Both the position numbers and the translations under genes were made by a program. A stretch of DNA of 64,000 nt from Polytrichum commune (taxonomy: Eukaryota > Streptophyta > Polytrichopsida > Polytrichales > Polytrichaceae), in the NCBI GenBank assembly GCA_950295325.1, contig OX485805.1, positions 23,485,501 through 23,549,500 on the forward strand, written 5' to 3'. This document shows, one piece after another, positions 4,931 to 41,900 of the stretch. The notes beneath the pieces are model-generated. The model ran no database searches. It was not told where the DNA came from and saw only the letters and a list, made by a program, of their open reading frames with translations. Within the stretch, counting starts at the first letter, position 1. Each line of letters begins with the position of its first letter.

Positions 4931-5413
4931 TGACTAGGTCTCTTAATAGTGTGAGCGATCATGTCAAAGGAGGCACCTCACTGTTGATCAATATCCAAGT
5001 AGGTTTAGAATTAATAATTGATGTGGAGTTTGGTCCCACGTTTGTTTTTTTAGGTGATATCTGACAACATCGCCATCCTTGGTCAAGCGGGCACCTGTTG
5101 GTCCGTCTAGGGTTATTTATTTCATCCACTGTAATCATCGCCCAACAACGAATTGCATGTAGGCTTGATGTCATCCGATGGTACTGAGCAGCTAGTTCGA
5201 ATTACTCTCCTCTTGGTCATCAACTTTGATACTACTCCCAAACCTCTTGGTTAGGGTTTGCTACAACATGCCATCGTCGGAGTCTTCAAGCCCTACTTTG
5301 TGCATCAACCAACAATGGAATCCAAGGTGAGTTTGCCTTTTTTGATAGGATGCATGTGAGTTCTTTAATTTGAATTGCAGAATGACTAATGTGATGATGT
5401 GGGTTGTGAATGG
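4931..5413. other. Left flank of the large retrotransposon
   Basis: No gene recognised. A short plus-strand frame at about 5,268 ends in a GTGAGT-like donor, and a possible acceptor (TTTTTGTAG) lies inside the 15-bp target repeat at 5,414. Too short to support an exon call. Confidence 0.3.
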
Positions 5414-5428
5414 TTGGATTTTTGTAGG
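5414..5428. repeat. Target-site duplication, left copy
   Basis: TTGGATTTTTGTAGG, identical over 15 bp to 20,033-20,047. It marks the 5' junction of the retrotransposon. Confidence 0.85.
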
Positions 5429-5923
5429 TGAAGTCTCAAGAGAGGGGAGCAATGCCGGAGCTCTGAATACCGGTATTGTGTTGACAGAGCTAGGATGGTC
5501 GTTGGTATTGTTGCAAGCATGCTGTGACTAAGTGTTCCTACGCACAAGGGTGAAGCCGTTTCCGTACGAAACTAGCACATGAACATGCTTACAGACCGAA
5601 GCTCTCGAAGAGTAGCAACATATTAGTTGAGTTACCTTACGGTTTTGTGCAGGTATAAATCTAAGTAGTTCGGTGAAGATTGGTAGGTTCAGAAAAGTTA
5701 TAGTACTGAGAGTATGTGGTGCGATTAGGTGTAGATCGGTAGCCTGGTGTAAGTTTGACTGATCGGTGCAAATCGTAAGAGATCGGGGTAGATCTGTGTA
5801 GCTGGTGCTCTGCGTGTCGGTCGACCGCACAGACATCGCAGCCACAATAAGCTCACAACTACAACGAGATCAAAACTGCACCGAGATCGTGTTGCACCAA
5901 AACCGAAACCCTCCAAAGTAACC

Positions 5924-6271
5924 TTAGCCAAAGCTCTGCGGGCGGCGATCGAGGAGGACGACGGTCGGTGTGCAGATCGTATCCAGCCAAGATCCGAGGA
6001 CATTGATCGGGGAGGGCGTCGGTCGGTGAGTAGATCGAACCCAACCAAACTCCAAGAACGTGGTTAGTAAGGGCGCCATTCGGTTTGAAGATCATACCCA
6101 GCCAAACGCTGAGGACGTTGCTTGGAGAAGGCGTCGATTGAAATACAGGCCAAACCCAGCCAAGCTCCGTGGGCAGTGAACGGAGAAGGCGTCGGTCGGA
6201 GTGCAGAACGAATCCAACCAAAGCTTCGAGGGCGTTGGAAGGAGAGTATGGAGGTAAGTGGGCAAATCGGG
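5924..6271 (+). repeat. 5' UTR tandem monomers, about 58 bp, six copies
   Basis: The anchor CCARCCAA recurs at about 5,924, 5,983, 6,041, 6,098, 6,156 and 6,214 (spacing 57-59 bp). Each is followed by a variant of GATCCGAGGAC and a GGAGAAGGCGTCGGTCGG-like segment. The position, 0.5-0.85 kb from the element's 5' end, recalls the promoter monomers of some L1 5' UTRs. That they act as a promoter is inference. Confidence 0.75.
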
Positions 6272-7979
6272 ACTGCATCATTCTTACATATGAGACTGCA
6301 CCGAGACCGGAGACCACATCCACGGATTCGGAAAAAGGTAAAGAATAGAGCATCAAAGTGTGAGGTTAGGACCACCACAACCTTGTCCCCTTGTTTCTCT
6401 ATTCGGATTCTTGTTCTAGGAAAAGTAGGCCTAACCTGTGCAAAACTTCATACCAAAGCTAGCACCAAGGCCAGAACCTACACCGAGGACATAATCTGCA
6501 CTAGAGGAGAGGCCAAACCGAGGTGATATCCGAGCGCCAAGGGCGATCACTACACCAAGGTCAAAGCCCAACCTCAAAGTGATAGCCCGATCCAAATCCG
6601 CAGCAGCCCTTCGAAGTAGGACTCTGCCCCGAAACCGTAGCATCAAGGCAGCAGCCCGCTCCACAGTAGCAGACCACGACTAGGCCGCTAACTGCACCCA
6701 AGAAGCAACCCGCTCCGAGGTCGGGAGGCTACACCAAACTCACCACCAACACCGAAGCATGCTACGGGAGTGCAAGTCTGCCCCGAGGTTGCAGCAACCC
6801 ACTCCAAAGCAGAAGAACACACCAAAGTCGCATACTACACTCAGGAAATAACCGGCTCCAGGGAAGGGGATTGTAGCAGACTGCACCCAAGAAGCGGATC
6901 GCTCCGAAGTCAGAGATTACACCGTAATCATCACCAGAGACAACTTCGAAGCCCGCTCCGTGGCCACAAGATTGCTACAAGGCTACAAACCTGTTTAGAG
7001 GGTGCAAGCCTATTCCGTGAACGGTACAGACACTGTCCACACAGCGGAAGGCAACAACTCTCTCGAACAGAGTATGCAGCAGCAATCCAGGACCTAGAGC
7101 CAAGCTGATACACCACCGAGTACTCGGTCACCATCAACCTGCACCGGACCAGGCAACTCAACCGAGTCCGCCGGGCCAATTTTCGAGAAACAAGGGTGAT
7201 TCCATTCTGCTCGAATAGACTGTGTGTACGGTGTTTTTGTGGCAAAGTAGTGACAGTGCTGCAAAGTGGTAGTGTAGATTCAAGTACTTAGAAAACCAAA
7301 ACCCAATCTGAGCATGCTGGGAGGGTTATAATTTGGTGTTGGAACATTGGCTCTAGTATTTAGAATCTACATGGCCACCTAACAAGCTGGTCCTACTCAA
7401 ACACGAACACACTGCACCCAGGCATAAAAGTGTAATCCAGAGCCGGTTGGTGAAGGGTGTGTGGATCCCGGAAGGAGAAAAAGCCCATATCTGAGCAAGT
7501 TGGATGGGCATGGCCTGAGTGCATTGGCAGGCCAAGTAATAAGAAAAACACCGGGACCATACACCAATCAAAAACCGGCCTCGATCACACCAGCTCTATC
7601 TCTTTGGAACTAACGACCGGAGCTCACCCGTCTCACCAAAGCCTCATGCGAAACAACACAAGAGCATCAGCACCCACCGAAGACACAGTGCATCAACCTC
7701 CTACAAACCCCAACAACACAACACCAAGTGGTCATAGAGGTAATTCACCTCACAAAGGTACGATTCCTCCCTCTTTGAATACAATGTTTTTCCATTTTCT
7801 CTTGCTACACATAGATAGGAAATGTCATTCCACATTGAATAACAACCATGAAAACACCCGCATAAATAAAAAAACTCCTCTACTACAAAGCCCCACTACA
7901 CGCGCTAGTGGAAAGTAGAGGAGCAAAATCTAAGCAAAAAAATAGCTTCACTAAACCAAACAAAGCATTATGTCCAAAC
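6272..7979 (+). other. Remainder of the retrotransposon 5' UTR
   Basis: GC-richer in its first 800 bp, with loosely repeated GCTCCGAGGTC/GCAGCCCGCTCC phrases, then turning A- and C-rich after about 7,400. A 153-codon plus-strand frame (7,457-7,918) shows no known domain. It could be an upstream frame but nothing supports a product. Confidence 0.4.
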
Positions 7980-9953
7980 ATGTACACTAAACCAACTAAT
8001 TCCAAACTAATAAACACAACTAATGTCACAATTTGTAGATACAAAAGGTTAGGACAAGGTAACCAAAGCTATAATCTCCTCCACAAAGCCTGCTTGCACG
8101 CGCAAAAAGGAGGAGGAGATAAAAACACTATCCCTCAAACCTACCAAAATATTAACAAACATTGTGATCAACATATGGCAAATAAAAGCAAAGCAGTTCA
8201 TGACGCCATCATGAGGAGCCCCATTGACACCAACATGGAAGACACGAATGACACAATGGTGATAGAGACCACCCAAACCAAGAGGACACAAGAAGCAAAG
8301 AAAGGAGGCAGCTCAAGCAAGCGGAAGAAAAATGTAGAGCTTACAACCGGATTAAAGGAAACACCGAAGGACTTTTGGCTTGGAATTTTGGCTATGGAGA
8401 AGCTCGCCATCGAAGAAGAAGTAAAAACCAAGGATTGTAGGCCATCAATGAAGAAGGAGGACCTCATCGAAATGGGCATATCCGAAGGAGAAGCAGAGGA
8501 GATGAGCCAACTGTACAAGATTGCATTCCCACATGTAAGACAACTACTCTACCCACTTGAGAGGCCAGATGGGAAAGGTGGGCAACATTTCAATTTAACT
8601 CAATTACCCATTGAAACCGAAGTCGATCCGGGCACCGGACTTTCCTTTGAGTACCACATAGTTGTCCACTTTCAAAGACCATCAACAGACTATACTCATA
8701 ATGAGATACTCAACATGGCAACAGCTAGACTAGCATGCATGAGCATCGAATTGGGGATAGGACTAGCGGAACCCATTTACATCCCTTGCAAAGAAAAAGA
8801 AAAAAACAGCAAAATCAAGTTCTAGACAGGGACCATTAAGATCCATCTCAAAAATCCTAAAGTTGATGGAATTAGCATGCTTAAGGGACTACGCCCTTTC
8901 ATCTTGTCACTAGACAAAACTCACACTCTAGGAAAGATTTGCAAATGCTATGATTCCATAGCTAGGAACACATTGCTATCTACAAAAATCGAAAACCCCA
9001 AGCTACACCTCATCTCCTTTAGCGAGTTACAGAGAGATGTTCTAATTGAAAGTTTCAAACATGGGTATGACTATGAGATTGCTAGTGTGCAAAAGGTTAA
9101 AGAGGAAACATGGGGATGGCTCATCTCAACCACGCCAACACAAGCAAACATGATCATCCAATACCTTGTCCCATACAAACAAGAACTCATGCAGGTAATC
9201 ACACCACAAGCAGCCAAAGTAGAAAGAAGGAGCCGCGGGGATGGACTCACAGAGGACGAAATCAAAAAGAAGAATGCCACCATGCTATGCCTCTATGGTC
9301 TTCACAAAATGAAGAAGGTTGAGGACACAAAGGACTCCATCAAAGCAGTGCTAGGTGAGCTCAATGTTGCATCCTTTTACTTTCCAGGACAAGTAGGTGA
9401 CCTTCACAAAGGCACGGCTAATGTGCAATGGCTTAACGCCATTGTCTACAAACAATGGGTAGGCAAGACAGTAGAGATCTTTGGTAAGCATGTAAGCTTT
9501 GCACCACGTCCAAAAAGCTTGCAAGGAGCAATACCACCCACTAAGGAGGAGCAAGAAAAACTTGGGTTTTGTGACATAACCACAACAATTGCGGATATTC
9601 TTGAGGCAACTCGCAATGCACCGCAAAGCAAAGGGAAAAGTAACATGATCACACATGACGACCTAGACGCACTAGTCGGAACTGCCATGGACAAGCGGAA
9701 TGGACAACTCCTAATTGAGCTCAAAACCGAACTCACAGCAAAAATACACAAGGAAATGGGAGACCTCAAAAAAGAGGTATCCTTGGAAGCGGATGTACGC
9801 GAAGAAAGAATCACCCGAAACTTGACAACACATGTCAAACAACAACTCACGGAAATCCGAAAACAACTTGCACTAACATCACAAGCGGTTAGTATGACAA
9901 CAAAAGCGCTAGACTCCATTCTAGCCCCAACACAACCTCAATTGGAAAACTAG
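7980..9953 (+). pseudogene. Retrotransposon ORF1, one in-frame amber codon
   Basis: The frame from ATG 7,980 to TAG 9,951 is 658 codons with a single interruption, TAG at 8,823-8,825 (codon 282). Downstream the same frame is immediately open (TGTIKIHLKNPKVDGIS, then MLKGLRPF), so the two halves are one protein. The N-terminal third is polar with a basic cluster (SSKRKKN); the middle has a folded-looking segment (FWLGILAMEKLAIEEE). The last about 100 residues (ELKTELTAKIHKEMGDLKKE onward) are heptad-like and probably coiled coil. I see no zinc knuckle or RRM motif. Its position upstream of ORF2 suggests the RNA-binding ORF1p role usual for LINEs. Only one lesion in 2 kb, against many in ORF2, is notable. 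The start could lie at a non-ATG codon further upstream (open to 7,908). Confidence 0.75.
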
Positions 9954-12311
9954 GTTGGAAAAACAACCACATAGCCCACCCACAAAAAATCTGTATCCAC
10001 ACAAGAAATGAAGAAATGGAAAAAATGAAAACAAACAAACCAATAGCATTTGGAAATGCTACCAACAAAGCAACACAAAAAATAAAAAAATAAATAACAC
10101 ATACAACTAAAGCATTCCTAAATCCTACCACACAAATCCGCAAACCAAAAGAAAAAAGAGAAAAACAAATAAAACCAAAGCATTTTTTAACGCTTTCACA
10201 CAAACTCATAAACTAAACCAACAACAAAAAAGAAAGAAAAATCCAAATCAAACCAAAGCATTCATAAATGCTCACACACAAACACATAAACTAAAACAAC
10301 AACAAAAATACCAAAAACAAAGTATACCAAAACAACCAAAACATAACCTAATACAAACAAAACTAACACATCCTAAAAACCACAAAACCAAAGCAATATA
10401 CAAACACAACATAACAACACTACGCCTACACACAAAAAGTTACAAAATACCAAAATACCAAAATAATAACCAAAAGAAAGTTAGGAAAAACTTACACAAG
10501 ATAAAACGAGCTCGGCCTACCGGCCTCGCCCAAGTACAAAACACATACAAACAAAACAAAGAAAACTCAAACTCATGTAAAACAACACCCAAACAAAGAA
10601 ATACCGAAAAAAATAATAACCAATTATAATACTAAAAAACACATACTTAGAAGAAATGTAGATAACACACTCAAAAGAAAAAACAACAACAAAAAAACAC
10701 CATACACAATTAACCACATAAGGACAAACACCCCACCTCCCTATAACAAACACCAAACAAAAAGACAAAGAAACCTTAAAAATATAGAGATACTCACAAA
10801 AAACAAATACCTAAGACAAACCCAACCCACCAACCTTGCCCATAATCAAAATAAATACAATAAAAGACACATATACTCAAAAAACAAAACACAACACACC
10901 AACTCATACAAAATAAAAACAAAAAGGAATAATGAACCCGCACAACATCAACAAACACAACCCCACCCCAAAACATACCCACCACCTAAGCTAAGTAAAA
11001 ACATTAATGTTAAGACAATAATGCAACAAAACAACAAAAACAACAAAATAAACATACTAATCAACAAAACAAAACACATAAAGACATACACCTCACCACC
11101 CCAAACAAACAAACAAAACCTTACAAAACTAATGACAAACAAAGACCTAAAAAGAACCCGGCCTACCAACCTCGCCCATAAACCAAAAAAAAACAACAAC
11201 AACAACAAGAATAAGCTTAAACAACACACAACCCCAAATAACATAAAACCCAAAAACAAAAATAAACACACCTAACAAAAACAAATAAAACCCCACCCCA
11301 AAAAATACACGACATACCTCCTACCTAGACTATGCAAAACCATCAATGGTAAAATAAAAGCACAACACAAAAACAAAAAAGATATACAAAAAACAAACCC
11401 AACAAACCTAGAACAAACAAAAAACAAGAAAGAAATAGCACCTCTCAACGTTGCCGCACAAACAAAACAAAAATTAACAACACATAACCCCAAAAATCCC
11501 AAAACCTCTAAACAAACACACAAAAACATAAAACAAAAAAAAGGAATAACACTTTCTAATGCCCTCACACAAAGGGAAACTAAAACAACACCCACAACCA
11601 TAAAATCAATTAAACACATAAAACCCCAAACAATCAAAAAAGCAAAACGCATAACCATAAACAACAAAGGTAAGAAAAATATCCCCATAACAAACCTACA
11701 ACGGGCTCGGCCTACCGGCCTCGCACAAAAACAAAGTAAATACAAACATAACAAAAGAACACACCCAACAATAATAAAAATACAAAAATCAAACACAAAT
11801 AAAACATCACCCAAACAAAGGAATACCAAAACTATAAAAAATAAGAATACCCATACTAATTCATATACCTTATACATACTTAGAATACATGCATCAAACA
11901 CAACAAAAACAAAGACAAAATACACAACTAAACTCATAAATACAAACACAAAACCCAAACCCGAAAAACAAAACAATACAAATACAATCAGACACAATAC
12001 CTCGACACAAATAAAACAAAATAAAACAAATGACCCTAACCGAAACAACAAAAGGCTCTAAAACAAACACTAAACAAACACAAACACCCAAAAAAAAAAA
12101 AATAATAATAATAATAACAACAAAGACAAAACAACCCTTAATACTACGGACCAAACAAAACAAAAAACAAAAAACAAAAAAAACATAAAACACCACCAAA
12201 AACAAACACAAACCTCACAAACAAATACACGAAAATAACCAAAAAAACACCTTTGGAAAGATAAAAAATACATACAAAGAACTGAAATCATACAAAACAC
12301 AAAAGGCAATA
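9954..12311 (+). other. Inter-ORF spacer, 2.36 kb, A/C-rich with palindromes
   Basis: There is no plus-strand coding frame. A motif close to GGCCTACCGGCCTCGCC recurs at about 10,513, 10,816 (degenerate), 11,160 and 11,708. Short palindromes recur in similar contexts: AGCATTTGGAAATGCT (10,046), AGCATTCATAAATGCT (10,256), AACATTAATGTT (11,001) and ACCATCAATGGT (11,339). The extreme lack of G and T produces long hydrophobic open frames on the minus strand that are composition artefacts. It may hold promoter or translation-initiation signals for ORF2; that is inference. Confidence 0.7.
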
Positions 12312-12509
12312 ATGGAACAGACAAACACGCCCCACATCACACAAACACATAAAAACAACATCAAACACCCAAACCAAATAACAAAACTAGACTACGAAGT
12401 AATAAATACATACAATAATAATAACAAAAAACAACGGTACACAACCTACAAAAAACGGAAAATCCTCCTCATAATCCACGCTTTCTTACACCTACTCCTA
12501 ATACTTAGC

Positions 12510-12536
12510 GGAGACATCGAAACTAACCCGGGTCCC
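12510..12536 (+). other. 2A-like ribosome-skipping motif GDIETNPGP
   Basis: Codons 67-75 of ORF2 read GDIETNPGP, an exact match to the D(V/I)ExNPGP consensus that makes eukaryotic ribosomes skip the Gly-Pro bond. Upstream is a hydrophobic leucine-rich run (LLIIHAFLHLLLILS), as in known 2A sequences of animal and trypanosome non-LTR elements, where 2A also sits at the ORF2 N terminus before the APE domain. Skipping would release a 74-residue basic/hydrophobic peptide and start the enzyme moiety at Pro75. Activity is predicted from the motif only. Confidence 0.85.
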
Positions 12537-13175
12537 ATGCCCAACGTCCTACAGTCACACCCATCCACACACAAAAATAGATGCAAAAGATACTTTATAG
12601 AATGCACAATCAAGTTACAACCCGAGTACCAACACTTAGCAAAACAATTTTCTCCAATCACAAATATAACACATCCAAATCATCAAGACACAACCACAGT
12701 CCATCCACACCTATCAAGATATATTTACCAAAATCAACACCACCCACCCCCACGCATACTGTACGCACTTATTACCACAATTAGCCCAGTAATCGAGACA
12801 TGCAACCATATACTAATACAAACCCTAGAACCAGACTGGACAACAAAAGTCTTAGAACGAATGGCCTCACTCCAAAACCCACCGGAAAGACACATCAGCA
12901 CCCCACACCCATACACACAATTCCTGCAAATAAACCAAGACATCATAAACCCACCTAACAACATCAACAAAAAATTATATAACTTCATGAACCAAAATAC
13001 TAAACCACTAACTCTACAATTAATGAAAGACAAATTCCCTTTTCTACCAGAAAATCTACTTATAGAATCATTAAAATGCAAAGAGCCACTAATAGAATAC
13101 TCCCACCCCCCACCACTACCCAACACACCAGCACAACACCCCCAAGCGAACCAGACAACACATCACAGTACACAC

Positions 13176-13938
13176 ATAATCACATGGAATGCTTCATCAC
13201 TAAATACAGCCCTACCAAACCTACACCAACTTATATCCAATACACCAAACAACCCGGCAATTATCACTATACAAGAAACCAAACTAACAGCAACAAAATC
13301 TACAAAGTATATACAAAGCCTATTCCCTCAATATAAACTAATATTCAACAATACACATGCACTAACAAGATGCATACAACAAAGAATGTCATATACACCT
13401 GCAAGAGGCGGACTCCTTACGCTCATAAATAAAACATACGCATACCCATGCAATATTACTAAAATCTCCACCCCAGCCGCAATATCACCATACCTCCAAA
13501 TAATAGAAATAAAGAACCAACCCCTACAACCATGGCTAATAATACACATCTATATGCCAACACACGAAGTAGATACACGATTTATACCAATATTATAACA
13601 GAACATAACACAACAAACCACTAATCACCCCAACCATACACACATTCTATGCGGAGACTTTAACAGAGACATAGCTCTAATTGGACGACAAAACGAATAC
13701 ATCACAACACCACCACAAGCACAAGATATAGAATGGTGTACATTTGTAAACAGCCTGCAACTTACGTACGTCCCCACGAACAGCTCATACTCTAGACAAG
13801 GTGGCCAAAACTATAACCAAACTAGCATAATAGATGGATACTTCATAAAAACAACTAACAATACTTTATACACATCAACCACGAATAATGACCACAACCT
13901 TAATTCAGACCACTCACCAATAATATTACATATACCAA
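13176..13938 (+). other. APE-type endonuclease domain of ORF2
   Basis: The expected motif series is present: ITWNASSLN (Asn), ITIQETKL (catalytic Glu), a RGGLLTLINK segment, CGDFNRD (Asp/Asn), SIIDGYF and SDHSPI (the final Asp-His pair). A TAA at 13,596 separates the Glu half from the GDFN half without a frame change. The function in LINEs is to nick the target DNA to prime reverse transcription. Confidence 0.85.
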
Positions 13939-14448
13939 ATAACACATTAATAACCCGATGTATGCCGACAATAACAGATAAACCCCAAGGATATTAAATC
14001 CTATCCCACAAGCAAATATTGAAAACTTCAAAAAAAAAAATTTTGAAGAAAATGCACTCCAAATAAATGAACTTACAAACACACTAAGCAAAGACCAACT
14101 AACAAACGACCAATGACAATCATCTTGTACAATACTAAACCACCTAATACAAAATATTTCTGACAAAATCCAAGACATGTGCAACGCACCACCCTTCCCA
14201 AACCTCACAAACCGTACATCACAACAAGGAGGCTTTCTGCCAAGAAAACTCCAAAAAAAATGGAAACACCACCTCTCCACCTACCACCTAATCAAGAAAG
14301 CAATTTTCACCATAAAAAATTCACCTAAATGGCCAACACACCCAATAATAGAAGAATTAAAAAACCACACCCAAGTTAATATCCCACCCCCCCAAATCAA
14401 GAACCCCACCAACAAGAATGGATAAAAAATTAGCCCAAATAGCCAAAA

Positions 14449-16074
14449 TTGCAAATATACACGCTCGAAAAATTACTACAAAATACACCCAAGAATGTGT
14501 CAAAAAAACTATATCCAAATACAGACAATTACATAAAAAACCCTAAAAAAATCAACAAAAGAGTCTTCAAACATCAAGAAACACCCCCATTAGATTGCAT
14601 TACAGATAACGACAACAATATCCTTACAAACCCAATGGACATAGCCAATGAAATCCACAAACAACAATCAATTAGTAACAGACCCACAGTTTCAACATGC
14701 TACCACCAACCAGAATACACACCACATTGTACTTGCCGAGTAAGACAATACCCATGGCATGACCTTGATGGATTTGTTATCGATAAAAGAAGAAACCCAC
14801 AAACCCCGCTACATAAATACTTCAACAGAAAAACATACGACTTAAGCCTTAAAAACCTAGCCAACAACAAAACACCCGGCCCAGATAAAATTCCTAACAT
14901 AATTTAAAAAAATATGCCTGAAAGCTTTCACAAACTACTCTTCCTATTCTTTTCTCACTGCTATAAACAAAAACAAATTCCAAAATCATGGAAACTAAGC
15001 TTAACTATACTCTTATATAAAAAGAGAGATCCCTCCAAATTAACCAACCATAGACCAATTGCACTAGCAAACACAATATACAAATTTTTTACGAGCACTC
15101 TAACATTCATACTGTCAGCATACGGAGAAGAACACTAAATCTTACACGATAGTCAAGAAGGATTCATAGCAGAAAGAAGCACATCCAGACAACTTCAACT
15201 CCTGATAGCAACACTAAAAGACGTACAATTCACAAACCAAGACATATACCTACTATATATCGACTTTAAGAACGCCTTCGGCTCTTTTGACCACGCAAGA
15301 ATATTAGCCATAACCAAAGACTTAGGATATCCAGAAGACGTTGTGACCCTAATATGAAACATTTATTCAAACTCTAATACCATATTCACCGGCGAACATT
15401 TTGGAAAAACAAAACCTATACCCATACAAAGAGGCACAATACAAGGCGACACACTCAGCCCATACCTCTTTCTGATATTCCTAGAACCCCTGCTAAGATG
15501 GCTACACAGAAGGAAAAATGGATACACATTTGGTACATCCAAACTAACAATTAGCTCGGCAGCATACGCAGATGATCTGGCAGCTATCACAAGCAACCTC
15601 CAATCAATACAAATCCAACTAAATAAACTAGACAAATATTGTGATTGGGCCGGAATGAATTTGGGAGTGCCAAAATGCGCCATCACAGGATGCCCAAATA
15701 AATCAAAAACAAAACCTAAAACATTCAAAGCCAAAATCCAAGCCCAAAACATCAACTACAAAAACCAATTACTATCTATTCTACACCAAAACGAACCTTA
15801 TGTATATTTAGGCATACAACTAGTACCCTCACTTAAATGGAAACTCCAAACACACATCACTTTAATCAAAATAATAAACCAATGCAAACAACTAACAACT
15901 TGCCCAGCTACAATGAAACAAAAAATAAGCATGGTGGACACCGTCATCAGAGCCGGTATAGCCTATAGCTTCTACGTAGTCCCATACTCATTACCAACCA
16001 TTAAAAAATTAGACAAAAAAATTATTGGAATCCAAAAAAAAAATGCGGCCTATTCAAATGTACAGCAAATATAA
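14449..16074 (+). other. Reverse transcriptase domain of ORF2
   Basis: One frame with three in-frame stops. Motifs in order: NNKTPGPDKIPN, HRPIALANTIYKFF, EGFIAERST, motif A YIDFKNAFGSFDH, motif B RGTIQGDTLSPYLF, catalytic YADDLA (about 15,565-15,582), then YLGIQL. The spacing is that of APE/LINE-type RTs. The catalytic aspartates in motifs A and C are intact. Confidence 0.92.
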
Positions 16075-18069
16075 TAACCCAACTACCACATGACCTATTT
16101 GGATTATAAGTCTTCTCACTAAAAATGCCTATCTAAGATGTATTGGTGAACAACTAAAAAACGCATTAAACGACCATGGCAGATTAAGAATAATATACAA
16201 ATGACTCATACAACATGTACTAGCCAAACACAGAGGGGTGGAGGACATACAAAGAATTAAATACCAAGACTGTATCAGATCACCTACAACAAGAACACTA
16301 TTTCTTATGAAAAAAGAAGGAGGAATTCACCTCAAAAGCACAAAAGCAAATTTCCAATTTCATATGACAAAACTGGAATAAGAATGAAGAACACAAGCCA
16401 TAGCTCATCTACCACAACTAGACAACGAGATATCCCTTAAACTCCTACATAAACTTCTAACCCACAACATACAAAAAATAAAACACATTTCTCTCCCCAA
16501 CGGCACAAATTTAATGTCACCAAAAGACTTCCAAACCTATTACAAAACACCGACAAAACTAGTAAAAAATGCACTACATATAGCGGAACAACTCTTTTGC
16601 CACCAAATCTGTAACCAAAACTGCCCAAATCCATGTACTCGACACCCACAAGTCCGCACACTCAAAGCACAATACATATCAGAAAATAGTGAACTAACAC
16701 CAAGAATGCCGGAAAACCCCCCGCATCCACCACTACCACAACAACCCGAACAACCCAACCCACCCTCAAATATAAAAAATAATCCTCTAAGATTCCCCAT
16801 ACAAATTATACTAAATCACAAAACAAACGAAACAAAAGATAAATATAAAATAACAAAAAAATTCAACACGTATCTATGCCAATGGTCACCTCAAAATAAC
16901 ACAACATATAATAAATGGCTACCACAAGGTGACCTATTCTCACTAAACCAACCCACAGTAGTCGAACACAACATTAAACTACTAAAAGAATACTACACGA
17001 GACATCAACACAATTACTACAATAGCATAGTATATACGCATCTAACCCCTACACAAACTAAAGACTCGAGATTCATACCACCATCTACGATAATACCACA
17101 CACCCAAATATCAATAATAGAATGTAACCCAGAAAAATATATTACCTCTGTAACTAACACTATACAAACACAACACGAACTAACACACATATATATGAAG
17201 ACACAGGCAAACACCTCATTACCATCCCAACCACTAGACTAAAATGACTATGGCAACAATATAACAAAGACAAATATAATACACATGGTCTAGTACCCCC
17301 CCCCCCCCACAATCATTTGAAACAAAATTAGTATGGCTCTACCAAAGATATAACCCTAAACAATCGAAAAAAGACCCACTAAAAATAGCTCAATACACCC
17401 TCTCACAAAACCTCCTAGACTCCATCACAAAAGCATTCAACATCTCACACTCATACTTCTCCTCACCAATAACATGTTCTACACATATCACAAATTTTTT
17501 TCCCCATTTGCAAGGGACAAAGTTTTTGGATCACTAGGCACCGCCTTCCAATATAAATGGAATTGAATTGGGTATGTCCACCCACATAATGAAGAAATGG
17601 CCCAACAAGCAATACATTGGGCTAGATTAGCAACCAAAAACGACCCAAACACCATCACATTACTAGTCACACCGGACATCAATTGGTACCAAAATTACTC
17701 ACCACACACCGGACCCTTCCCGGATGTACATGTTCTGACCCATTTCACTACAGATACCATCACATACGACGAACCCACAACCCCTCAAAATACAAACAAA
17801 TCCCGAATTGAACCATTAGCAATACACATCTTTTGTATCCACCACCAAAACCACAATATTGGCACACCCAACCAAATAGATATAATCAAAACAACAATAG
17901 AAAATCTACAAATAGCACAATACCACATACAAATTAAAAGGCCCCACCCACACCCAACAACACACCAGTAAACAAAAACATTAAATGGAATAAATTACTT
18001 TACCCACCCCATATTAACCCGCCAACCACAAACACACCACCATTATCAAACTACAAAATCAACACTAGA
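16075..18069 (+). other. Unassigned region of ORF2 between RT and RNase H
   Basis: About 2 kb with open stretches at 16,514-17,242 and 17,597-17,971 in shifting frames. The first begins with RT-thumb-like helices and a Cys-rich patch (CHQICNQNCPNPC), then a proline-rich linker. The second has a compact, conserved-looking segment (HWARLATKNDPNTITLLVTP, then DVHVLTHF) that I cannot place in a family. A C tract at about 17,291-17,305 lies between them. Longer than the usual RT-RNase H linker, so an extra domain is plausible. Confidence 0.5.
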
Positions 18070-18087
18070 TTAAAATTCCCACCACAA

Positions 18088-18535
18088 TACAGCTACTACA
18101 CAGACGGCTCGTTTGTCCCACCCAGAAAAGACAACGCCGGGCATTGGAAGAAAGAAAAGAAGCGGGCTACGGAATCTACAACCCAAAAAAACAGAAATAC
18201 GTATATCAAAGAGACTACCTGGCCTACAAACCAGCTTTAGAGCAGAACTAATGGCCATACACAAAACACTCAAACTAATTACTACTAAATACGCTAATGA
18301 ACCAGCACACATATTCACAGACTGTCTCGACTGTCTATATGTATTTAATACACAAATTAAACACCCCACCGACCATAACAACCACGCTGACAAAACTATA
18401 TTAAAATCTATGGTAGAAATGTTAAAAAGCCGAACACAACCCACCACGATGTATAAAGTCAAAGCACACATAAACATTGATGGGAATGAACAAACAGACC
18501 AGCTAGCAAAACAAGGCATCAAAAAAAAGATTTAG
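18088..18535 (+). other. RNase H domain of ORF2
   Basis: The four acidic signature positions are visible: YTDGSF (about 18,097-18,114), RAELMAIHK, HIFTDCLDCLYVF and NEQTDQLAKQG. A one-base shift separates YTDGSF from the rest. The probable role is removal of template RNA from the cDNA hybrid. Confidence 0.8.
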
Positions 18536-18689
18536 ATTCGCTGAAAAATCATACGAATATGCATACACTACTCCATACTACTTTCAAAAAGACACATGGC
18601 CTGGCCCAACCAAACGACCTGACAAAGGCCCTGTCAGATGCCTTGAAACATACATTACCAAACACGACCGAGATAACAACCTAAAAATC

Positions 18690-19550
18690 ATGTCAGAACA
18701 ATTCCCCAACATTAGCAAATGGACAATGAACCCTGATATAGATAACGAAATATCCAACAATTTCTGGTCTAACCCTGCAATAACAGATCCACAAAAAACA
18801 TGCCTACTAAAATTCCGAACGGGACAATACATGGGCAATGCCAGAAAACAACTATTTTTTGGCATAGAAAGATTCCCATCTATCACATGCTCAATCTGCA
18901 ACTCCCTTGATGCAGATACATAGCTACATGTACTGTTAAAATGCAACCAACACCACATACATGCCCTAAGAACCAAAAGACACAACAAAGCAGTATGGGA
19001 ACTAAGAAAGCTACTCCTATCATGGCAAAAATCCAAATGTTACATCCTCATGAATGCAGGAACATTTAACAACAACCCACAAGAGAATACAGTCTCCACA
19101 TGGCTCCTCCCATGCACATGTACACAACAAACATGCCACTGTAACGCTAAATTCAAACCCGACCTCCTGTGTATTAAAGAACTCCCACACCAAAGTACCC
19201 CACCATCACACCCAATAGACAATCTGGCGATACATTTAATCGAATTCACATACACAAATGACAGATTTCCACAGGATACAATTAACAATAAAATCCAAAA
19301 ATATCAACCATTAATTAACGACATCACTCAACACGGCTGGAAAACAGAGCCACTTCTAGTCATTACGGCCGGAACAAGAGGAACCATGCACGTCCCGTCA
19401 ATGAAACAATTGGAACAAACATTTAAACTCCCTGAAAACCCGATAAAACATACATTCAAAGAAATAAACACTATTGCCATACAACATGCTAGTTCAATCC
19501 TTCTACATAAAAGGCGTACTGAAAACAACCAAGCAATACCAACAAAATAA
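18690..19550 (+). other. CCHC plus restriction-like endonuclease at the ORF2 C terminus
   Basis: One frame, broken only by TAG 18,921. It reads CSIC, then LHVLLKC, H, LRTKRHN: the layout of the CCHC/RHN segment before the RLE of R2-like elements. About 190 nt later comes KPDLLCI, then LIEFTYTND and NKIQKYQPL, i.e. KPD, an acidic residue on a strand, and a K..KY helix, the R2-type RLE signature of PD-(D/E)XK nucleases. The tail (PLLVITAGTRG) also fits this fold. Family assignment is by motif order; structure prediction would test it. Confidence 0.7.
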
Positions 19551-19668
19551 GAAAGAAGAGGTCATAATGAGGACCCCTTTATTAAATTATATGAACACTA
19601 ATAGCTCAGGAAGAAGGGTAGAAGCCGGTTGGTCGGTAACAATTTTCCTGCCTTTAACCACTAGGTAG

Positions 19669-19788
19669 CACCAAGTCATGCATTACACATTTAAACGCTC
19701 CAACGGACTCAACGGGAATCAAACCCAGACCGTCTAAAGTACAGAACAAACATCCTCCCTCAACCAACCGAGGAAATATGACTTGGTG
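19669..19788 (-). other. tRNA-like foldback in the LINE 3' UTR
   Basis: CACCAAGTCAT at 19,669-19,679 pairs perfectly with ATGACTTGGTG at 19,778-19,788. Between them, on the minus strand, a GGGTTTGATTCCC segment matches a tRNA T-arm/B box, preceded by GGTTGGTTGAGG resembling a D arm and an anticodon-like stem. It could be a SINE fragment captured by the element, or an element-encoded RNA structure used in template recognition. There is no evidence that it is a functional tRNA. Confidence 0.5.
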
Positions 19789-20016
19789 ACCACCAACACC
19801 CCAATCCGCAACTTATACTATAACACTGACGTCACTACCCGATAAATTACCGCAATCGGTTACATTTACGTTGTCTCCTGGTTACTATAGTGCCCATCCT
19901 CGAAAGGGGAGAGTAGTACTGTCCCAATTTCCCCCTGTCTGGTAGACATCGGGTCATTTGACAATACGAATGGACACTTCATTCACGCCGGCCCCTTAAA
20001 CTGGGACCGGAGTTTC

Positions 20017-20032
20017 TATCTATCTATCTATC
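20017..20032 (+). repeat. (TATC)4 tail at the retrotransposon 3' end
   Basis: Four perfect TATC units end exactly where the 15-bp target repeat begins, replacing a poly(A) tail. Confidence 0.9.
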
Positions 20033-20047
20033 TTGGATTTTTGTAGG
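20033..20047. repeat. Target-site duplication, right copy
   Basis: TTGGATTTTTGTAGG, identical to 5,414-5,428. Confidence 0.85.
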
Positions 20048-21411
20048 GGAGGTGGCCATTGGCAACACCTCCGACTTTGAGGAGTGGATCTCACCTATGT
20101 TCAAGTGGTGTGTGGTTAGGTATGTATCTATGAACAAACCCCAAAAAGGCCTATACTTAAAAACAATTGGACAATAATAGGGCTATCCTTAAAGTCTCTC
20201 AAAGACTCATGATCTGGTAGGGAGTTTTGGCCCACTTTTGACATTTAATAAAGTTTAAGGAGTGTTCAAGGGTGTTGGAACCCTTGATTTTTGTGAATGG
20301 AAGGGAAGGTGTTTGACTTTAGAGTGCACAAGAGTGTTGCATAAAAACGAATTTTATAGCAAATTTTTGAAGGCACCTAAAATGATGCTCTCAAAAGTTT
20401 GACAAGGAGTTTATTTTTGTAGACTTATGTTGGCCAAAATCAAGCGCTTCCACTAAACTTCACCAAAATTGGAGGCTCCAACACCACTCGAACACTCTTT
20501 GTGCATTATGAGATGTCGACAATGGGGCATAATTCCCTATGAAAACATGGGTTTTGAGAGATTTTTAGGGGAAAAATGTTATGTTATTAGCATAGGCCCT
20601 TCGGGAGGCACCAAACATGCCTCTTTTAAGGGTTGCTCCTATTAAGAGCTCACCAAAGGTTCTTGTGTCAAAGACTGATTTTGAAACACAAGTGAAACTC
20701 CTTGGACATCGTTGTTCAATCCAAATGATTTTGAGAAAACTTTAGGATCTTAAAATAGGTTGTGCTCCATACACGTATTGGCTCGGCCTATGCAAGGCTA
20801 GTTTGGTCCATAGATCCTAGTACGATAAGCTAGAAAAGTTATCTATAACAACATGCATGCACTCTTGAAAAAGTGAACACGACAATCATGAAGACTTAAG
20901 CTTAAATGATCCTTTGAGAGCGAACCAGGAGAATCTTCACTTTGATAATGAATAAGACATTCGTAGGAGCTCCCATTATTTATAAGGGAATGAGCTACAG
21001 CCTGGGCTTGGAATTGCTAACCATTATTTTGTATTGTACTGGTCAGTCATGCATGGGATTTCCCAGAAGAACTGGCTAGTTGGGAATGTGTGTTTGTCTG
21101 CATCCACAATAAGCAGGAAGTATATAAGTTAGCGAACTTGAGAAGCTTTGGCAACCATTGATCCTGTGTATTGAAGGAGTCACTGGAAACAAGCTCCACA
21201 TTTGGTGCCACCATGGCAGAAGAGGAAAAGGTGCCACCCCAATTAAGGAGCGAGGTTCGCGGCAGCTTTCATTTTGTCCCATTGCAACCACAGCATCCCT
21301 CTTGGATCGGCAAAAAGAGAATCAGCATTCTGCAAAATTTATGATTCTTGCTCGAAATCCAGTGACAAAATCATGAGACGCATCGACTTAGAGAAACTAA
21401 CTTATGCACGG
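20048..21411. other. Intergenic sequence, no gene recognised
   Basis: Unique-looking AT-rich DNA. Near 21,120-21,220 a TATA-like AGTATATAAG, a CTCCACA end and a TGGTGCCACC sequence resemble an LTR end followed by a primer-binding site, but no second LTR or pol gene is visible. Confidence 0.3.
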
Positions 21412-22440
21412 CAAGTTGGAATCACAGGTCAAAATGCCTCGTTCTTTGTTGGATGCCTAAACCCTTGCCTCCAAGGAACCAGTGTACGGGTTGGTTTAAG
21501 GTTTAGGGCAAGTTGGAAATCACAGGTCAAAATTGCTCCTTCTTTTGTTGCCTGCACCCCATCAAGCCTGGATTTGGGCGAACCAACCCATACACTCGTT
21601 CTTTGTTGGATGCCTAAACCCTTGCCTCCAAGGAACCAATGTACGGGTTGGTTTAGGGTTTAGGGCAAGTTGGAAATCACAGGTCAAAACTGCTCCTCCT
21701 TTTGTTGCTTGCACCCCATCAAGCCTGGATTTGGGCGAACCAACCCATACACTCGTTCTTTGTTGGATGCCTAAACCCTTGCCTCCAAGGAACCAGTGTA
21801 CAGGTTGGTTTAGGGTTTAGGGCAAGTTGGAATCACAAGTCAAAACTGCTCCTTCTTTTGTTGCTTGCACCCCATCAAGCCTGGGTTTGGGCGAACCAAC
21901 CCATACACTCATTCTTTGTTGGATGCCTAAACCCTTGCCTCCAAGGAACCAATGTACTGGTTGGTTTAGGATTTAGGGCAAGTTGGAATCACAGGTCAAA
22001 ACTGCTCCTTCTTCTGCTGCCTGCACCCCATCAAGCTTGGATTTGGGCGAACCAACACATACATTCGTTCTTTGTTGGATGCCTGAACCCTTGCCTCCAA
22101 GGAACCAATGCACGGGTTGGTTTAGGGTTTAGGGCAAGTTGGAACCACAGGTCAAAACTGCTCCTTCTTCTGCTGCTTGCACCCCATCAAGCTTGGATTT
22201 GGGTGAACCAACCCATGCACTCGTTTTTGTTGGATGCCTAAACCCTTGCCTCCAAGGAACCAGTGTACTGGTTGGTTTAGGGTTTAGGGCAAGTTGGAAT
22301 CACAGACCAAAACGCCTCCTTCTTCTGTTGCTTGCACCCCATCAAGCTTGGATTTGGGCGAACCAACCCACACACTCGTTCTTTGTTGGATGCATAAACT
22401 CTTGCCTCCAAGGAACCAGTGTATGGGTTGCTTCGCCCTA
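21412..22440 (+). repeat. 157-bp tandem array, six copies plus a partial one
   Basis: The anchor TTTGGGCGAACCAAC (small variants) occurs at about 21,573, 21,730, 21,885, 22,042, 22,198 and 22,353, spacing 155-157 bp, preceded by a shorter partial unit from 21,412. Each unit joins the 83-bp foldback element also present at 28,515 to a segment with GGTTTAGGGTTTAGGGCAAG (two telomere-type units) and a TTGGAATCACAGGTC stretch. Only the last unit keeps the right inverted repeat (GGGTTGCTTCGCCC, 22,424-22,437). The frames open through the array are repeat translations, not genes. Confidence 0.9.
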
Positions 22441-30707: not shown

Positions 30708-32206
30708 CGGAGATGGGGAGTGAGCTTGGATTGGTTTACTTGTAGACAACACCAAGGCTTCGCGGGATCTAAGATATGGGGGCACATAAGCAAGGCCTGG
30801 AAGGTAATGGTTAATGGGACCTATCAACTTCCCCCTCGCACTAGGATGGAATTACTGCATTCAAATATATGGTGGTCAGAGGGCGTAGATCTCCTCAATA
30901 AAGGAATAGATTACACTAAAGGCCTACATCTCTATCGCAAAGGAATCCGGTGTGTGGACAACGTTTGGGATAGCACGCAACAAGAATTTCTCACATGAGA
31001 GAGAGCACAAGGTAAATTTAAGCTTACTAACCTTGAACAAGGAGACTGGGAGGAGGTGACGGATGAAATCTCTCGAAAGTGGCGCCAATTACTGGAATCC
31101 GAGGAAGATACCACGTATGCCGGTCAATGGCTAGGTCTCTACATAGGCAGGGAAGAAGACCCGGCCTTAGTCATTAGATGCGATGAGGATTTCACTCCCG
31201 AGTGCTTTCAACGGAAAACCCTTACATTGCCTCTTCCGGTGCAATGCTTTACGGTTGGAAAACACTCAAGATGCCTCAGGGAGTGGGAAAACCCTCAAGG
31301 AGAACTTGAAGGTTTCTTTCACAAGGTCAAGATTATGCACACTAACAGGGGGCCTAAGAAGGACGGGAAAAGGGAGGAAATTATTTTCTTCTATGGCAAA
31401 CTTGCCACTCTAGGGTGGGACCCGGACAGATGGAGGTGGATCGATGGCGGTCGGTTTCTGGACTATACCACCAAGGATGGATGTGCCAACATCCTTAATA
31501 GGAACCCAGGCACCACACGGGCGGGAGACAAATGGCAAGGTTATCTCCCAAGGAACTATAGGTTTCACTGGTCACATGTGTGGGATCCGTTACGGTCGGG
31601 TAAGGAAGCCGCGTTTATTTGGTCAATATGGCATAAGGCGGTGGCCGTTAATGATTGGAGGGCACGCATTGCTCCGGCCTCAATTTCCAAACAATGTGTG
31701 CTTTGCCTTCCTAACACTAGTGAATCAGTCAAACACAAATTTTGGGACTGCATTCAAGCTAGACGGGCATGGAGATGGGCTACATATATCATGCACGAAC
31801 TCTGCGGGGTTAGATCCGGAAACTATGATTGCTTCAATTGGAAACAAGTGATTTTTGAGGAAAGAATTCCCAAGAGATATGGGAAAATGGTTAAAATTTG
31901 GCACCTTCTTAGGGGCATTACCCTTTGGACTATTTGGATTGAACGGAATGACAAAGTTTTCAACCAGATACAATGGCATGAATCTAAGGTTAAGCAATAG
32001 ATTTGGGATGCGTTGATTATCTATGCCAAGATGGCTTGGAAAAGGGTGGTGGCACAAGTTAAGATTAGTAGCTTCTCAAAAATGACTATGTTGCGCGGCT
32101 TCGACAAGACTTGGGGGCGAGGAGCGTTCTTTGTCGTGGACAAGATATGCATGTCAATTGGAACTGGAGAAGACACCGTAGGTAGGTTGGCGAGGCCCCT
32201 TCGGGG
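30708..32206 (+). pseudogene. L1-type LINE ORF2 C-terminal fragment
   Basis: One frame from about 30,708 to 32,206 with two interruptions (TGA 30,996 and TAG 31,998); reading resumes in frame after each (ERAQGKFKLTNLEQGDWEEV; IWDALIIYAKMAWKRV). It contains the plant reverse-transcriptase zinc-binding domain: FIWSIWHKAVAVNDWRARI, then CVLC, SVKHKFWDC, AWRWA. The RT and endonuclease are missing, so the copy is 5'-truncated as LINE insertions often are. It belongs to a different LINE lineage from the 14.6-kb element (no RNase H or RLE, different base composition). Confidence 0.8.
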
Positions 32207-38945: not shown

Positions 38946-41900
38946 TTAGAACATGTGTACACTCCGGCGGCGGTCAAGTCTTGGAGAGTTTCCCCTCGAG
39001 TTATCCTCCAATGGTTCAATACCAGACTCAGCTTCGTCAAGCTCGACATCCCTTGCTTCAAGTTCTTCATCACACAGCTCAAGCAATCGGTCTGCCAACG
39101 GTGGGATCCCAGGATTCCTTCCATCATTGTAAATGTGAGCGTTATCAGCAATTTGTTGGACGTCCTGTCGGAATTCACTACGGCTGTTGTACTTCAGCTT
39201 ACGAACCCGTTCACGGATTGTTGAAAGATCCATGGGCTGCTGAACGTAATAGTGGTAGTCGGGGGCATCCTTCTTAGGGACTGGCTTTCGAAATAGAAAA
39301 GAGCAGTCTGCATTTTTTAAGAACTCCAGTACACCTTCTAAAATATTGCACAATTCAACCTGCAGGACATTCCACCAGATCCTATAAATTATCTAATCAC
39401 AATAAAATGCAGTGCAATTTTTGGGATAAAATCCTGAATTTGTACAGAAATCCTCAATGTGGAGGCAAAGTGGAGGAAACCCAGAAGGAAGTAACTTGTA
39501 AGTAAAAGAAGCCAAAGTGCTCACCTGGCCTCCTCTCTTGCGTATTCGTTTTTGCACATTACCCGATTCAGGAGTTGGTTGATGATATGTTGGAACATGT
39601 ACCTCAGGTCGTCTCTTGACCCCTTTCCCCCTGTCTTTCACATTTGGTAAGGGAGTAGATCCAGCCATAACCCTTACTTTCTCCTTTATATTTTTCATTT
39701 TCACTTGCTTGTCCCGAAGCCTCCCTCTCTCTTCTTCTCTGGCTTTTCTTTCTCTTTCCTCCCTCTCTGCTTTCATCTTTGCTTCTGCTTGCAATCTCTC
39801 CCGTTTCTTTTCCTTCATTCTCATCTGCTTTTGACGGTCCCGCTCTGCTTTCTCCTGTTCCTGTCGAGATCTCTCTTCCTGCTCAGCTCTAACCCTCTCC
39901 TCTTCCGCCATCTTCCGTTCGAGTTCTTCCTGTTCTCGTTCCATTTCTTCTGCAAGTGCCCTCTGATATTCTTCTGCCTCTCGCTGCCGCTCCCTCTCCG
40001 CATGTTCTCGTTCCTTCCTCTTCAGTGATACAGAATCATTATTCACATGCACAACCTTCTTCTTCAGCGTCTTTACTGGCAACAACCTCTTGCTCTTCAC
40101 ACCATTTGAAGCATTTGACAGCTTCTCGCGTCGCTCCAACTCCCTCTCTTCTCTTAACCTCTCCTCCAAAAGTGCAGCCTCATATGCCTCTTGCTCTCTC
40201 CTCATCCTCTTCTTCTCTTCCTCGGCTTCTTGTTCCTTTTTAAGTCGCATCTGCTCCTGCTCCTGTTTCTGCTTCAATTTTAGCTTGAGAAGGGGAGGTC
40301 TAGCCCCACTGTCTCCTGTACCATTGGCATCACCTGAATGTCGTCTCTCAGGCTTTCCTTTCCCAATTTTCTTCACAGGTGGCGCTGCGATATCATCTGT
40401 GCTATTCTGACTGCTGTTCCCTGTCAGCAGCCTGATTTTGAGAGAAGGAAGCTTTGCTAGAGGTGGTGGTGGTGGTGGGGTTTTCGAATCCTTCTTCGGC
40501 AATGGTACTTTGGGTGGAGGAGCCTGTACAGATTTGGGGGAATCCAGTTCTTCCACTGTCTTTGTGGAGAGCGACTTTCTCTTTATGGTGATCTTTGTCC
40601 CTTGTCTTTCCACTAAACCTTCAGCAGCTGCCCCCTGGTCTTGCCAAGCCACAGGCTCACCATCTTCCATATACAATGGGCATTTTTTGTTGGTTCTCAT
40701 ATGCCCCAACTGCAAGACCATCAATGATTCAGCTATATTCAATGCAATTCACCAAAAGCCCACAAACATGAAACTCGTCTGTGGAAAACAATAAGCTTCT
40801 TCTGGATCTGAACTTTAACTTCACAGCCAACTTCCATAAAAAGGGCAGATACTTTGTGAAAGGAAGTTCGTAACTGAAGTTAGAATCTGAGTTGACAGCT
40901 TACACTATCTTCGAGTGACATTCTACCCAAAATTCGAAAGGTGAAGTAGCATTCTTACCTGTCCACAGGCCCCACAAACCAGGGATAATGCGTCTCGCCC
41001 AAACTTTCCATTTACCTTGCCCTTAGTTGGTATCTGCCACACCCAGAAAGATGGCTAAGATAGTCCTCATAATGAACCAACCAGGAACATATAAAAGATG
41101 GTCGTCCTGAACTTCAATGGAAGCTCTTGAATTCAAGAGAGTCAAGAAAGTTAGACACCAATGCTTTCATAATCATCTAAGGATATTTCTACAAATAAGC
41201 ATAGCACACTAAATCAGCAAAAATGCTGTGAGCTCGTAAGAATGATTAAATAAAAGGCTGCTTAAAGTTTGCAAAATCTGAATCCAGATGTAAAAGACAA
41301 GTGTTGCAATGAGAACCTTCCAAGTCAAGGTCACAATTTTCATGATATCCACCAATGTTTGCCCCTATACTAAATGCTTATGTGATCATTGTGCACTTAA
41401 AGCCCAAGTAGTTTTAGTTGGTAACCCAGTTGAAGACATACCTTTACCTCTTTGACAGGGGTTGCCCCCTTTTTCACCTTCTTGGCAAGTTGAGAAGATT
41501 TTGCGGGCCCCTTCTTTCCAGACTTATCTTTATCAACCCCTCCTTTTTGATTTGCTGCTTTGAGTGCATTCTTCTTTGCTAGATAGAGCGCCACCTATAG
41601 ATACACCAAGCAAGAAACGTAGGTAAGCACCTAAACACACAAAGACGTTTGGCACAAGAAATGGTACATTTAGAAGTCAGCTTGGTCCAGCTTGGACCAG
41701 AGCAATGCAAGCCCAGCAAACAGGAGAGACATATTGGCCACCAGAAACTTTACGTTGAGTTTACTAAAGAGAACATTGCCAGCTGCAAGCAAATAAATAA
41801 TATTGTCTTGATAAGATGACAAGTACCTCCTTAGGGTCTGTGATTATGATTTCCTTCGAGGTATAAGTGCCATCTGGCTTCTTTGTACGAATAATGCGTT

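Follow-up and report, generated by a model that had tools for sequence, protein, structure and literature searches.

The 64,000-nucleotide stretch of the Polytrichum commune genome considered here (contig OX485805.1, positions 23,485,501 to 23,549,500; hereafter the window) carries a non-long-terminal-repeat (non-LTR) retrotransposon which, on the basis of its sequence, is very probably a full-length but no longer active member of a large Dualen/RandI-type family of the moss, and which we regard as a new, land-plant variant of a kind previously reported from green algae. The Dualen/RandI group is said to have been described by Kojima and Fujiwara in 2005. An earlier note on this DNA had listed a 2A motif, an apurinic-type endonuclease (APE), a reverse transcriptase (RT), an RNase H and a restriction-like endonuclease (RLE). 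All five were found in the copy, but the note had missed a PCIF1/CAPAM-like domain and the decay of the copy. The features of the window copy, including its untranslated regions (UTRs) and open reading frames (ORFs), are as follows.

5414..5428, + strand: left target-site duplication TTGGATTTTTGTAGG (exact repeat)
5429..20032, + strand: complete but decayed copy of the non-LTR retrotransposon (14,604 bp)
5429..7865, + strand: 5' UTR, with a 58-bp unit repeated in tandem about 4.9 times at 5947-6231 (end set by the ORF1 boundary)
7866..9953, + strand: ORF1, with an in-frame stop at 8823 and a conserved part from about 8100 (alignment with other copies)
9954..12488, + strand: A/C-rich low-complexity spacer, 57% A and 25% C
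12510..12536, + strand: putative 2A StopGo-type motif GDIETNPGP (read from the translation)
13160..13960 (ends approximate), + strand: APE, with a stop at 13596
14920..15830 (ends approximate), + strand: RT, with stops at 15136 and 15355
17292..17940 (ends approximate), + strand: PCIF1/CAPAM-like methyltransferase-fold domain, GYVHPHN at the NPPF site, broken (kind recognized from sister copies)
18083..18517, + strand: RNase H, with the D-E-D-H residues retained and a change of frame within the domain
18890..18944, + strand: CCHC zinc knuckle, with a stop at 18921
18945..19490 (ends approximate), + strand: RLE, PD-E-K residues present (translation motifs and profiles)
19551..20016, + strand: 3' UTR, whose last part consists of an inverted repeat rich in G and C (about 19988-20011) and GAGTTTC
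20017..20032, + strand: (TATC)4 tail
20033..20047, + strand: right target-site duplication (exact repeat)

Ends of the element and its copies in the genome

The perfect 15-bp repeat enclosing the element and the (TATC)4 tail abutting its right copy, on which the earlier note had based the borders, are exact at the positions given above. In the whole genome (407.8 Mb in 64 contigs, with seven long ones, C1 to C7, of 42-78 Mb), TTGGATTTTTGTAGG occurs three times, and two of the three occurrences are the duplication of the element.

A genome search with the final 473 bases of the element gave 1,631 first-look candidates, of which 40 were scored, and all 40 matches, the window's own included, stop at query position 460-473. 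The closest of them belongs to a sibling on C7, which we compared with the window in three pieces at matching spacing: the 3' end is 97% alike, the RT piece 93.8% over 901 bp and the 5' piece 95.2% over 629 bp. The sibling has its own duplication, (C)CTTCCAAACA, and the distance from the duplication to the start of the common 5' block is 18 nt in the window, compared with 17 nt in C7; the few bases that differ may be untemplated or divergent. All of the 38 further 3' junctions (those scored except the window and C7) run through CGGAGTTTC or a near variant, followed by a TATC, ATC or TAT repeat and then by flanks that differ, except for L059 and L060, which have a common flank. The proposal that the copy is complete even at its 5' end held up, and no copy with ends that do not coincide was seen among those examined. 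L078, L082 and L086 have long ATC or TAT repeats in place of the TATC tail, a change that looks like slippage of the repeat unit in the course of insertion.

Candidate duplications were also recovered by a script run on the fetched stretches of three further copies (14 bp, TATGTAGATGAAGG; 12 bp, TGGCCCCATAGG; 11 bp, TTGAATTAGGA), and for C4_34922 and C6_34070 this script returned no candidate in the stretch fetched. Four of the five duplications read have AGG at or beside their end. However, AGG was discarded as a target motif, since 37 3' flanks showed no enrichment of it (0.020-0.023, compared with 0.019 at greater distance; in a few rows the trimming left part of the tail on the flank), and in the same flanks no downstream A-run of the kind expected for L1 stands out. 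Joining the window's flanks (5101-5428 and 20048-20400) yields an open frame of about 68 codons across the empty site, which may be a disrupted exon or due to chance.

The size and state of the family were examined with a 238-residue RT piece, for which 150 matches were scored of 1,564 first-look candidates; many of those scored are free of stops, and the longest open frame spans 2,924 codons. Six further copies were fetched, four picked for long frames and two for likeness. In the four long-frame copies, ORF2 measures 2,919, 2,924, 2,625 and 2,625 codons from stop to stop and overlaps the ORF1 frame; the other two are broken. The ORF2 regions of two open copies, C1_17950 and C5_35129, are 98-100% identical in protein, and we infer that the family moved recently. 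The 5' UTRs of these two copies (copies stitched from L042-L045) are mostly unrelated, each with its own tandem repeats, which, beside a near-identical ORF2, suggests fast 5' UTR replacement, as is familiar from L1 promoter monomers.

Architecture of ORF2 and selection on its domains

The domain order is best seen in P0001, the ORF2 of a C1 copy, where a low-complexity linker is followed by GDIETNPGP at residue 578 and, in the Pfam scan, by APE (801-965), RT (1418-1681), PCIF1_WW (PF12237; 2171-2299) and RNase H (2434-2577), with a CCHC knuckle and then the RLE located C-terminal to RNase H. Both APE and RLE lie within the same open ORF2 of the sister copies. A tblastn search with P0001 found all these parts colinear in the window, from 12489 to 19547, and the APE, RT, RNase H and RLE motifs, which we take to be those of catalysis, are present in all four intact moss ORF2s and in the window frames. 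The putative 2A motif, which resembles the 2A/StopGo consensus D(V/I)ExNPGP, is intact in the window and in four of the six other copies read. The A/C-rich spacer at 9954-12488 corresponds to an open N-terminal ORF2 linker in the intact sisters. Its interpretation as an AUG-free scanning device was rejected, with 17, 12, 4, 4 and 16 AUGs counted in five copies against 10.4, 6.4, 4.7, 4.0 and 10.3 expected.

In the window itself, Pfam recognized Exo_endo_phos_2 (4e-8), RVT_1 (4.6e-13) and RNase_H (5.5e-12) on pieces of the copy; the first APE half stayed under the cut-off (0.058), neither the RLE piece nor ORF1 gave a Pfam match, and no Rfam match was obtained at gathering scores. ORF1 contains one stop, and ORF2 contains 23 in nine tblastn blocks spread over several frames, some of these stops falling in block overlaps. 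The window copy, although full-length, is decayed and very probably inactive now.

Of 94 proteins, 4 from the moss and 90 from the database, 77 contain the RLE region according to an iterated profile. The D of PD is conserved in all 77, the P in 72 and the K in 59; the next site after PD holds E or D in 76. A profile that included a Utopia-like row matched R2 proteins in the PDB (E value, 1.7e-7); without that row an R2 protein still came first (1.2e-4), and the other R2 row was weak (0.88), behind an alanine racemase (0.35). Several database relatives (P0006, P0027, P0043, P0016, P0032 and others) have added domains in the same protein, namely, PF02902, PF02338, PF02099, PF00628 or PF00145 (presumably Ulp1, OTU, Josephin, PHD and cytosine methylase, respectively), suggesting that the group often gains accessory domains.

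The ratios of nonsynonymous to synonymous change (dN/dS) were taken from the comparison of C4_34922 with C1_17950, where dS is 0.36-0.72 over regions. The values are 0.07 for APE, 0.05 for RT, 0.10 for the PCIF1-like domain, 0.04 for RNase H and 0.10 for RLE, and 0.50 for the linker before the 2A motif; the outcome is alike when C1_17950 is replaced by its near-copy C5_35129. We did not rely on the comparisons with C1_40946, which are saturated or nearly so (0.05-0.15 for the enzyme domains), nor on C1_17950 against C5_35129, where there are too few changes. In the one usable comparison, the codon changes indicate that APE, RT, the PCIF1-like domain, RNase H and RLE are all under purifying selection.

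The PCIF1-like domain and a possible insertion mechanism

The domain between RT and RNase H matches PCIF1 in both fold and sequence in the sister copies, and the Pfam match in P0001 superseded a DAM-like identity considered at first; no WW domain such as that of PCIF1 appeared when P0001 was scanned with Pfam. Given this match and the low dN/dS (about 0.10), one could think of an active cap-adenosine N6-methyltransferase marking the element RNA, for host-mRNA mimicry or better translation. We consider this unlikely, though, since all four intact moss copies have HPPN or HPHN at the NPPF site, and NPPF occurs in none of 69 aligned rows, where NPEY is commonest, whereas PCIF1 activity is described as reduced when NPPF is disrupted (PMC6318281, in the passage available). 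The altered motif makes RNA binding seem likelier than methylation, and, with this motif altered, the PCIF1-like domain probably serves to hold the element RNA, at its capped 5' end or at adenines, without methylating it.

More tentatively, with the odds somewhat against it, we suggest that dual-endonuclease long interspersed elements (LINEs), from green algae to mosses, captured a PCIF1/CAPAM-like fold between RT and RNase H, that the methyltransferase motif was lost in most of them and that the fold was selected as a grip on the capped RNA 5' end, aiding full-length insertion of giant elements. One survey confines PCIF1 to eukaryotes, in a passage that does not mention transposons (PMC8868631).

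An insertion cycle can be proposed on these grounds. The RNA would start in the 5' UTR, and the ORF1 protein, for which the predicted strand-helix order only hints at RNA recognition motif (RRM) folds and a coiled-coil tail, might bind it with low confidence as to its RRM-like nature; ORF2 would be translated after ORF1, and the 2A motif would release the enzyme part from a freely changing, weakly constrained linker. The two endonucleases would nick opposite strands 10-15 bp apart, and the RT would use the first nick to prime on the UAUC-repeat tail, in target-primed reverse transcription, with the tail growing by slippage on the repeat. RNase H would clear the RNA, and the PCIF1-like fold would bind the RNA 5' end.

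Elements with two nucleases are regarded as showing how APE took the place of RLE during the evolution of LINEs (PMC4640811, in the part available). A land-plant family with long open copies, and with both nucleases under selection, would make it testable which nuclease makes which cut, and the PCIF1-like domain would tie retrotransposition to the recognition of the RNA 5' end.

Phylogenetic position and comparison with known systems

In a first RT tree (97 rows, quick search), evaluated with the Shimodaira-Hasegawa-like approximate likelihood ratio test (SH-aLRT), the four moss rows grouped together with a support of 100 and fell, with a support of 96, within an 83-row branch that also contains five named algal rows (Parachlorella, Pleodorina and Haematococcus). 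R2, human L1, a fungal row, a row which we take to be RTE-like, five oomycete (Utopia-like) rows and four unnamed rows lay outside. A second tree (101 rows) added four L1-type RTs of the same moss, and the L1 group, these four included, received a support of 95, with the RT of the element outside. Forcing that RT together with L1 lowered the log-likelihood by 41.8, with a p value in the approximately unbiased (AU) test of 0.0494, which is marginal, long branches being present. Database fragments nearer to the moss number 244 at E values up to 1e-30; the best 120 of the 244 are 45-88% identical, and none of these has an organism name.

The element could also belong to a separate, new clade that lies between the R2-type and the APE-type elements, has kept both nucleases and is not sister to the algal Dualen/RandI. 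The long stem of the moss group (0.9 changes per column), its exclusively unnamed database neighbours, joined with a support of 82 and under, the R2 proteins as best solved relatives of the RT and the odd letter make-up of the moss rows would all agree with such a placement. However, the 83-row set with its named green-algal members argues for the affinity to Dualen/RandI, as does the Haematococcus row P0054, where APE, RT and RNase H are present and the PCIF1-like and RLE profiles find matches, and a separate clade is in our opinion improbable. Finally, the window copy alone, split over three frames with many stops, might suggest a plant L1 or RTE that received RNase H, RLE and other pieces at a later time, by nesting, or a chimera of neighbouring fragments. 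This is scarcely credible, because the four sister copies hold the domains in one open, uninterrupted frame, which argues strongly against nested insertions, the sister ORF2 is colinear with the window throughout and the RT stands apart from the four L1s of the same genome, albeit with the marginal AU result. An RT inside plant L1/RTE combined with nested insertions, which the earlier note had named as a refutation, was not seen.

Several observations nevertheless weigh against the assignment to the Dualen/RandI type and the picture built on it. The alternative of moss plus L1 is rejected only marginally by the AU test, and the smallest group uniting the moss with the named algae (75 rows, second tree) has an SH-aLRT support of 77. 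Moreover, the moss rows fail the letter make-up test in both trees, which renders their position less sure than the support suggests, and the trees contain algal rows but no C. reinhardtii Dualen or Repbase RandI reference. The relation between the ORF1 and ORF2 frames is not constant among copies, the AlphaFold2 model of ORF1 is poor (mean predicted local distance difference test score [pLDDT], 48.8), and in two of the seven copies read the 2A motif has K in place of E. The 37 3' flanks yielded no target motif, and the evidence for selection comes from a single usable pair of copies.

As to the surroundings, a 156-bp unit is repeated 6.4 times (93% matches) at 21438-22430, just downstream of the element; an open frame at 30999-32000, presumably zf-RVT-like, resembles the tail of a plant L1 ORF2, and exon-like frames on the minus strand at 39393-49054 resemble what we take to be TAF1. 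Elsewhere in the assembly, contig C8 has an intact matK and is probably plastid. The matK product is 97% identical to an unnamed database cluster, 89% to Dawsonia sp., a member of Polytrichaceae, 75% to Oedipodium, 72% to Tetraphis and 71% to Tetrodontium, which places the host in or near Polytrichaceae.

Among known systems, plant L1 elements share with the moss element APE and RT and, in some cases, RNase H, but we know of no plant L1 with an RLE. The moss RT groups apart from L1, and its RNase H keeps the H that is replaced by R in the archaeal-like RNase H of plant L1 (PMC4640811, passage available); the L1 tail is poly(A) in 224 of 233 flowering-plant families according to the available portion of PMC3747384.

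With R2 and Utopia, the moss element shares the CCHC knuckle and RLE at the C terminus, and among solved structures R2 is closest to its RT. Different from these elements, neither of which has an APE to our knowledge, it carries one and is thus not RLE-only; no fixed target was seen in the moss element. Furthermore, its RNase H follows the RT, whereas in oomycete Utopia it precedes it (PMC4640811, same portion).

PCIF1/CAPAM, the cap-specific m6Am methyltransferase, shares its methyltransferase fold with the moss domain, which differs in the replaced NPPF and in being embedded in a retrotransposon polyprotein. In the portions of the open literature covered, which leaves subscription papers, bioRxiv and Repbase outside, neither a PCIF1 domain in a LINE nor a Dualen element in a land plant was found.

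The closest precedent is the Dualen/RandI group, as the earlier note had supposed. In the passages available, this group encodes both nuclease types (PMC3636483, PMC4640811) and an RNase H (PMC4640811), is present as Dualen in all core-Reinhardtinia species studied (PMC8226300) and, in all eight algal RandI families, ends in short repeats such as (ATT)n and (CTATTT)n (PMC3747384). The moss element resembles it in combining APE and a PD-(D/E)XK (RLE) nuclease in one ORF with RT and RNase H and in its tandem-repeat 3' tail, (TATC)n, instead of poly(A). This part of the supposition stood, and the joining of the RT to green-algal rows, in trees lacking a Dualen reference, agrees with it less firmly. 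Different from Dualen/RandI, tabulated under green algae only in the parts available of PMC4438587 and PMC3747384, the moss element has a land-plant host, contains between RT and RNase H a PCIF1-like domain that the Dualen/RandI passages available do not mention and, at 14.6 kb, carries a long A/C-rich spacer and a putative 2A motif before the APE.

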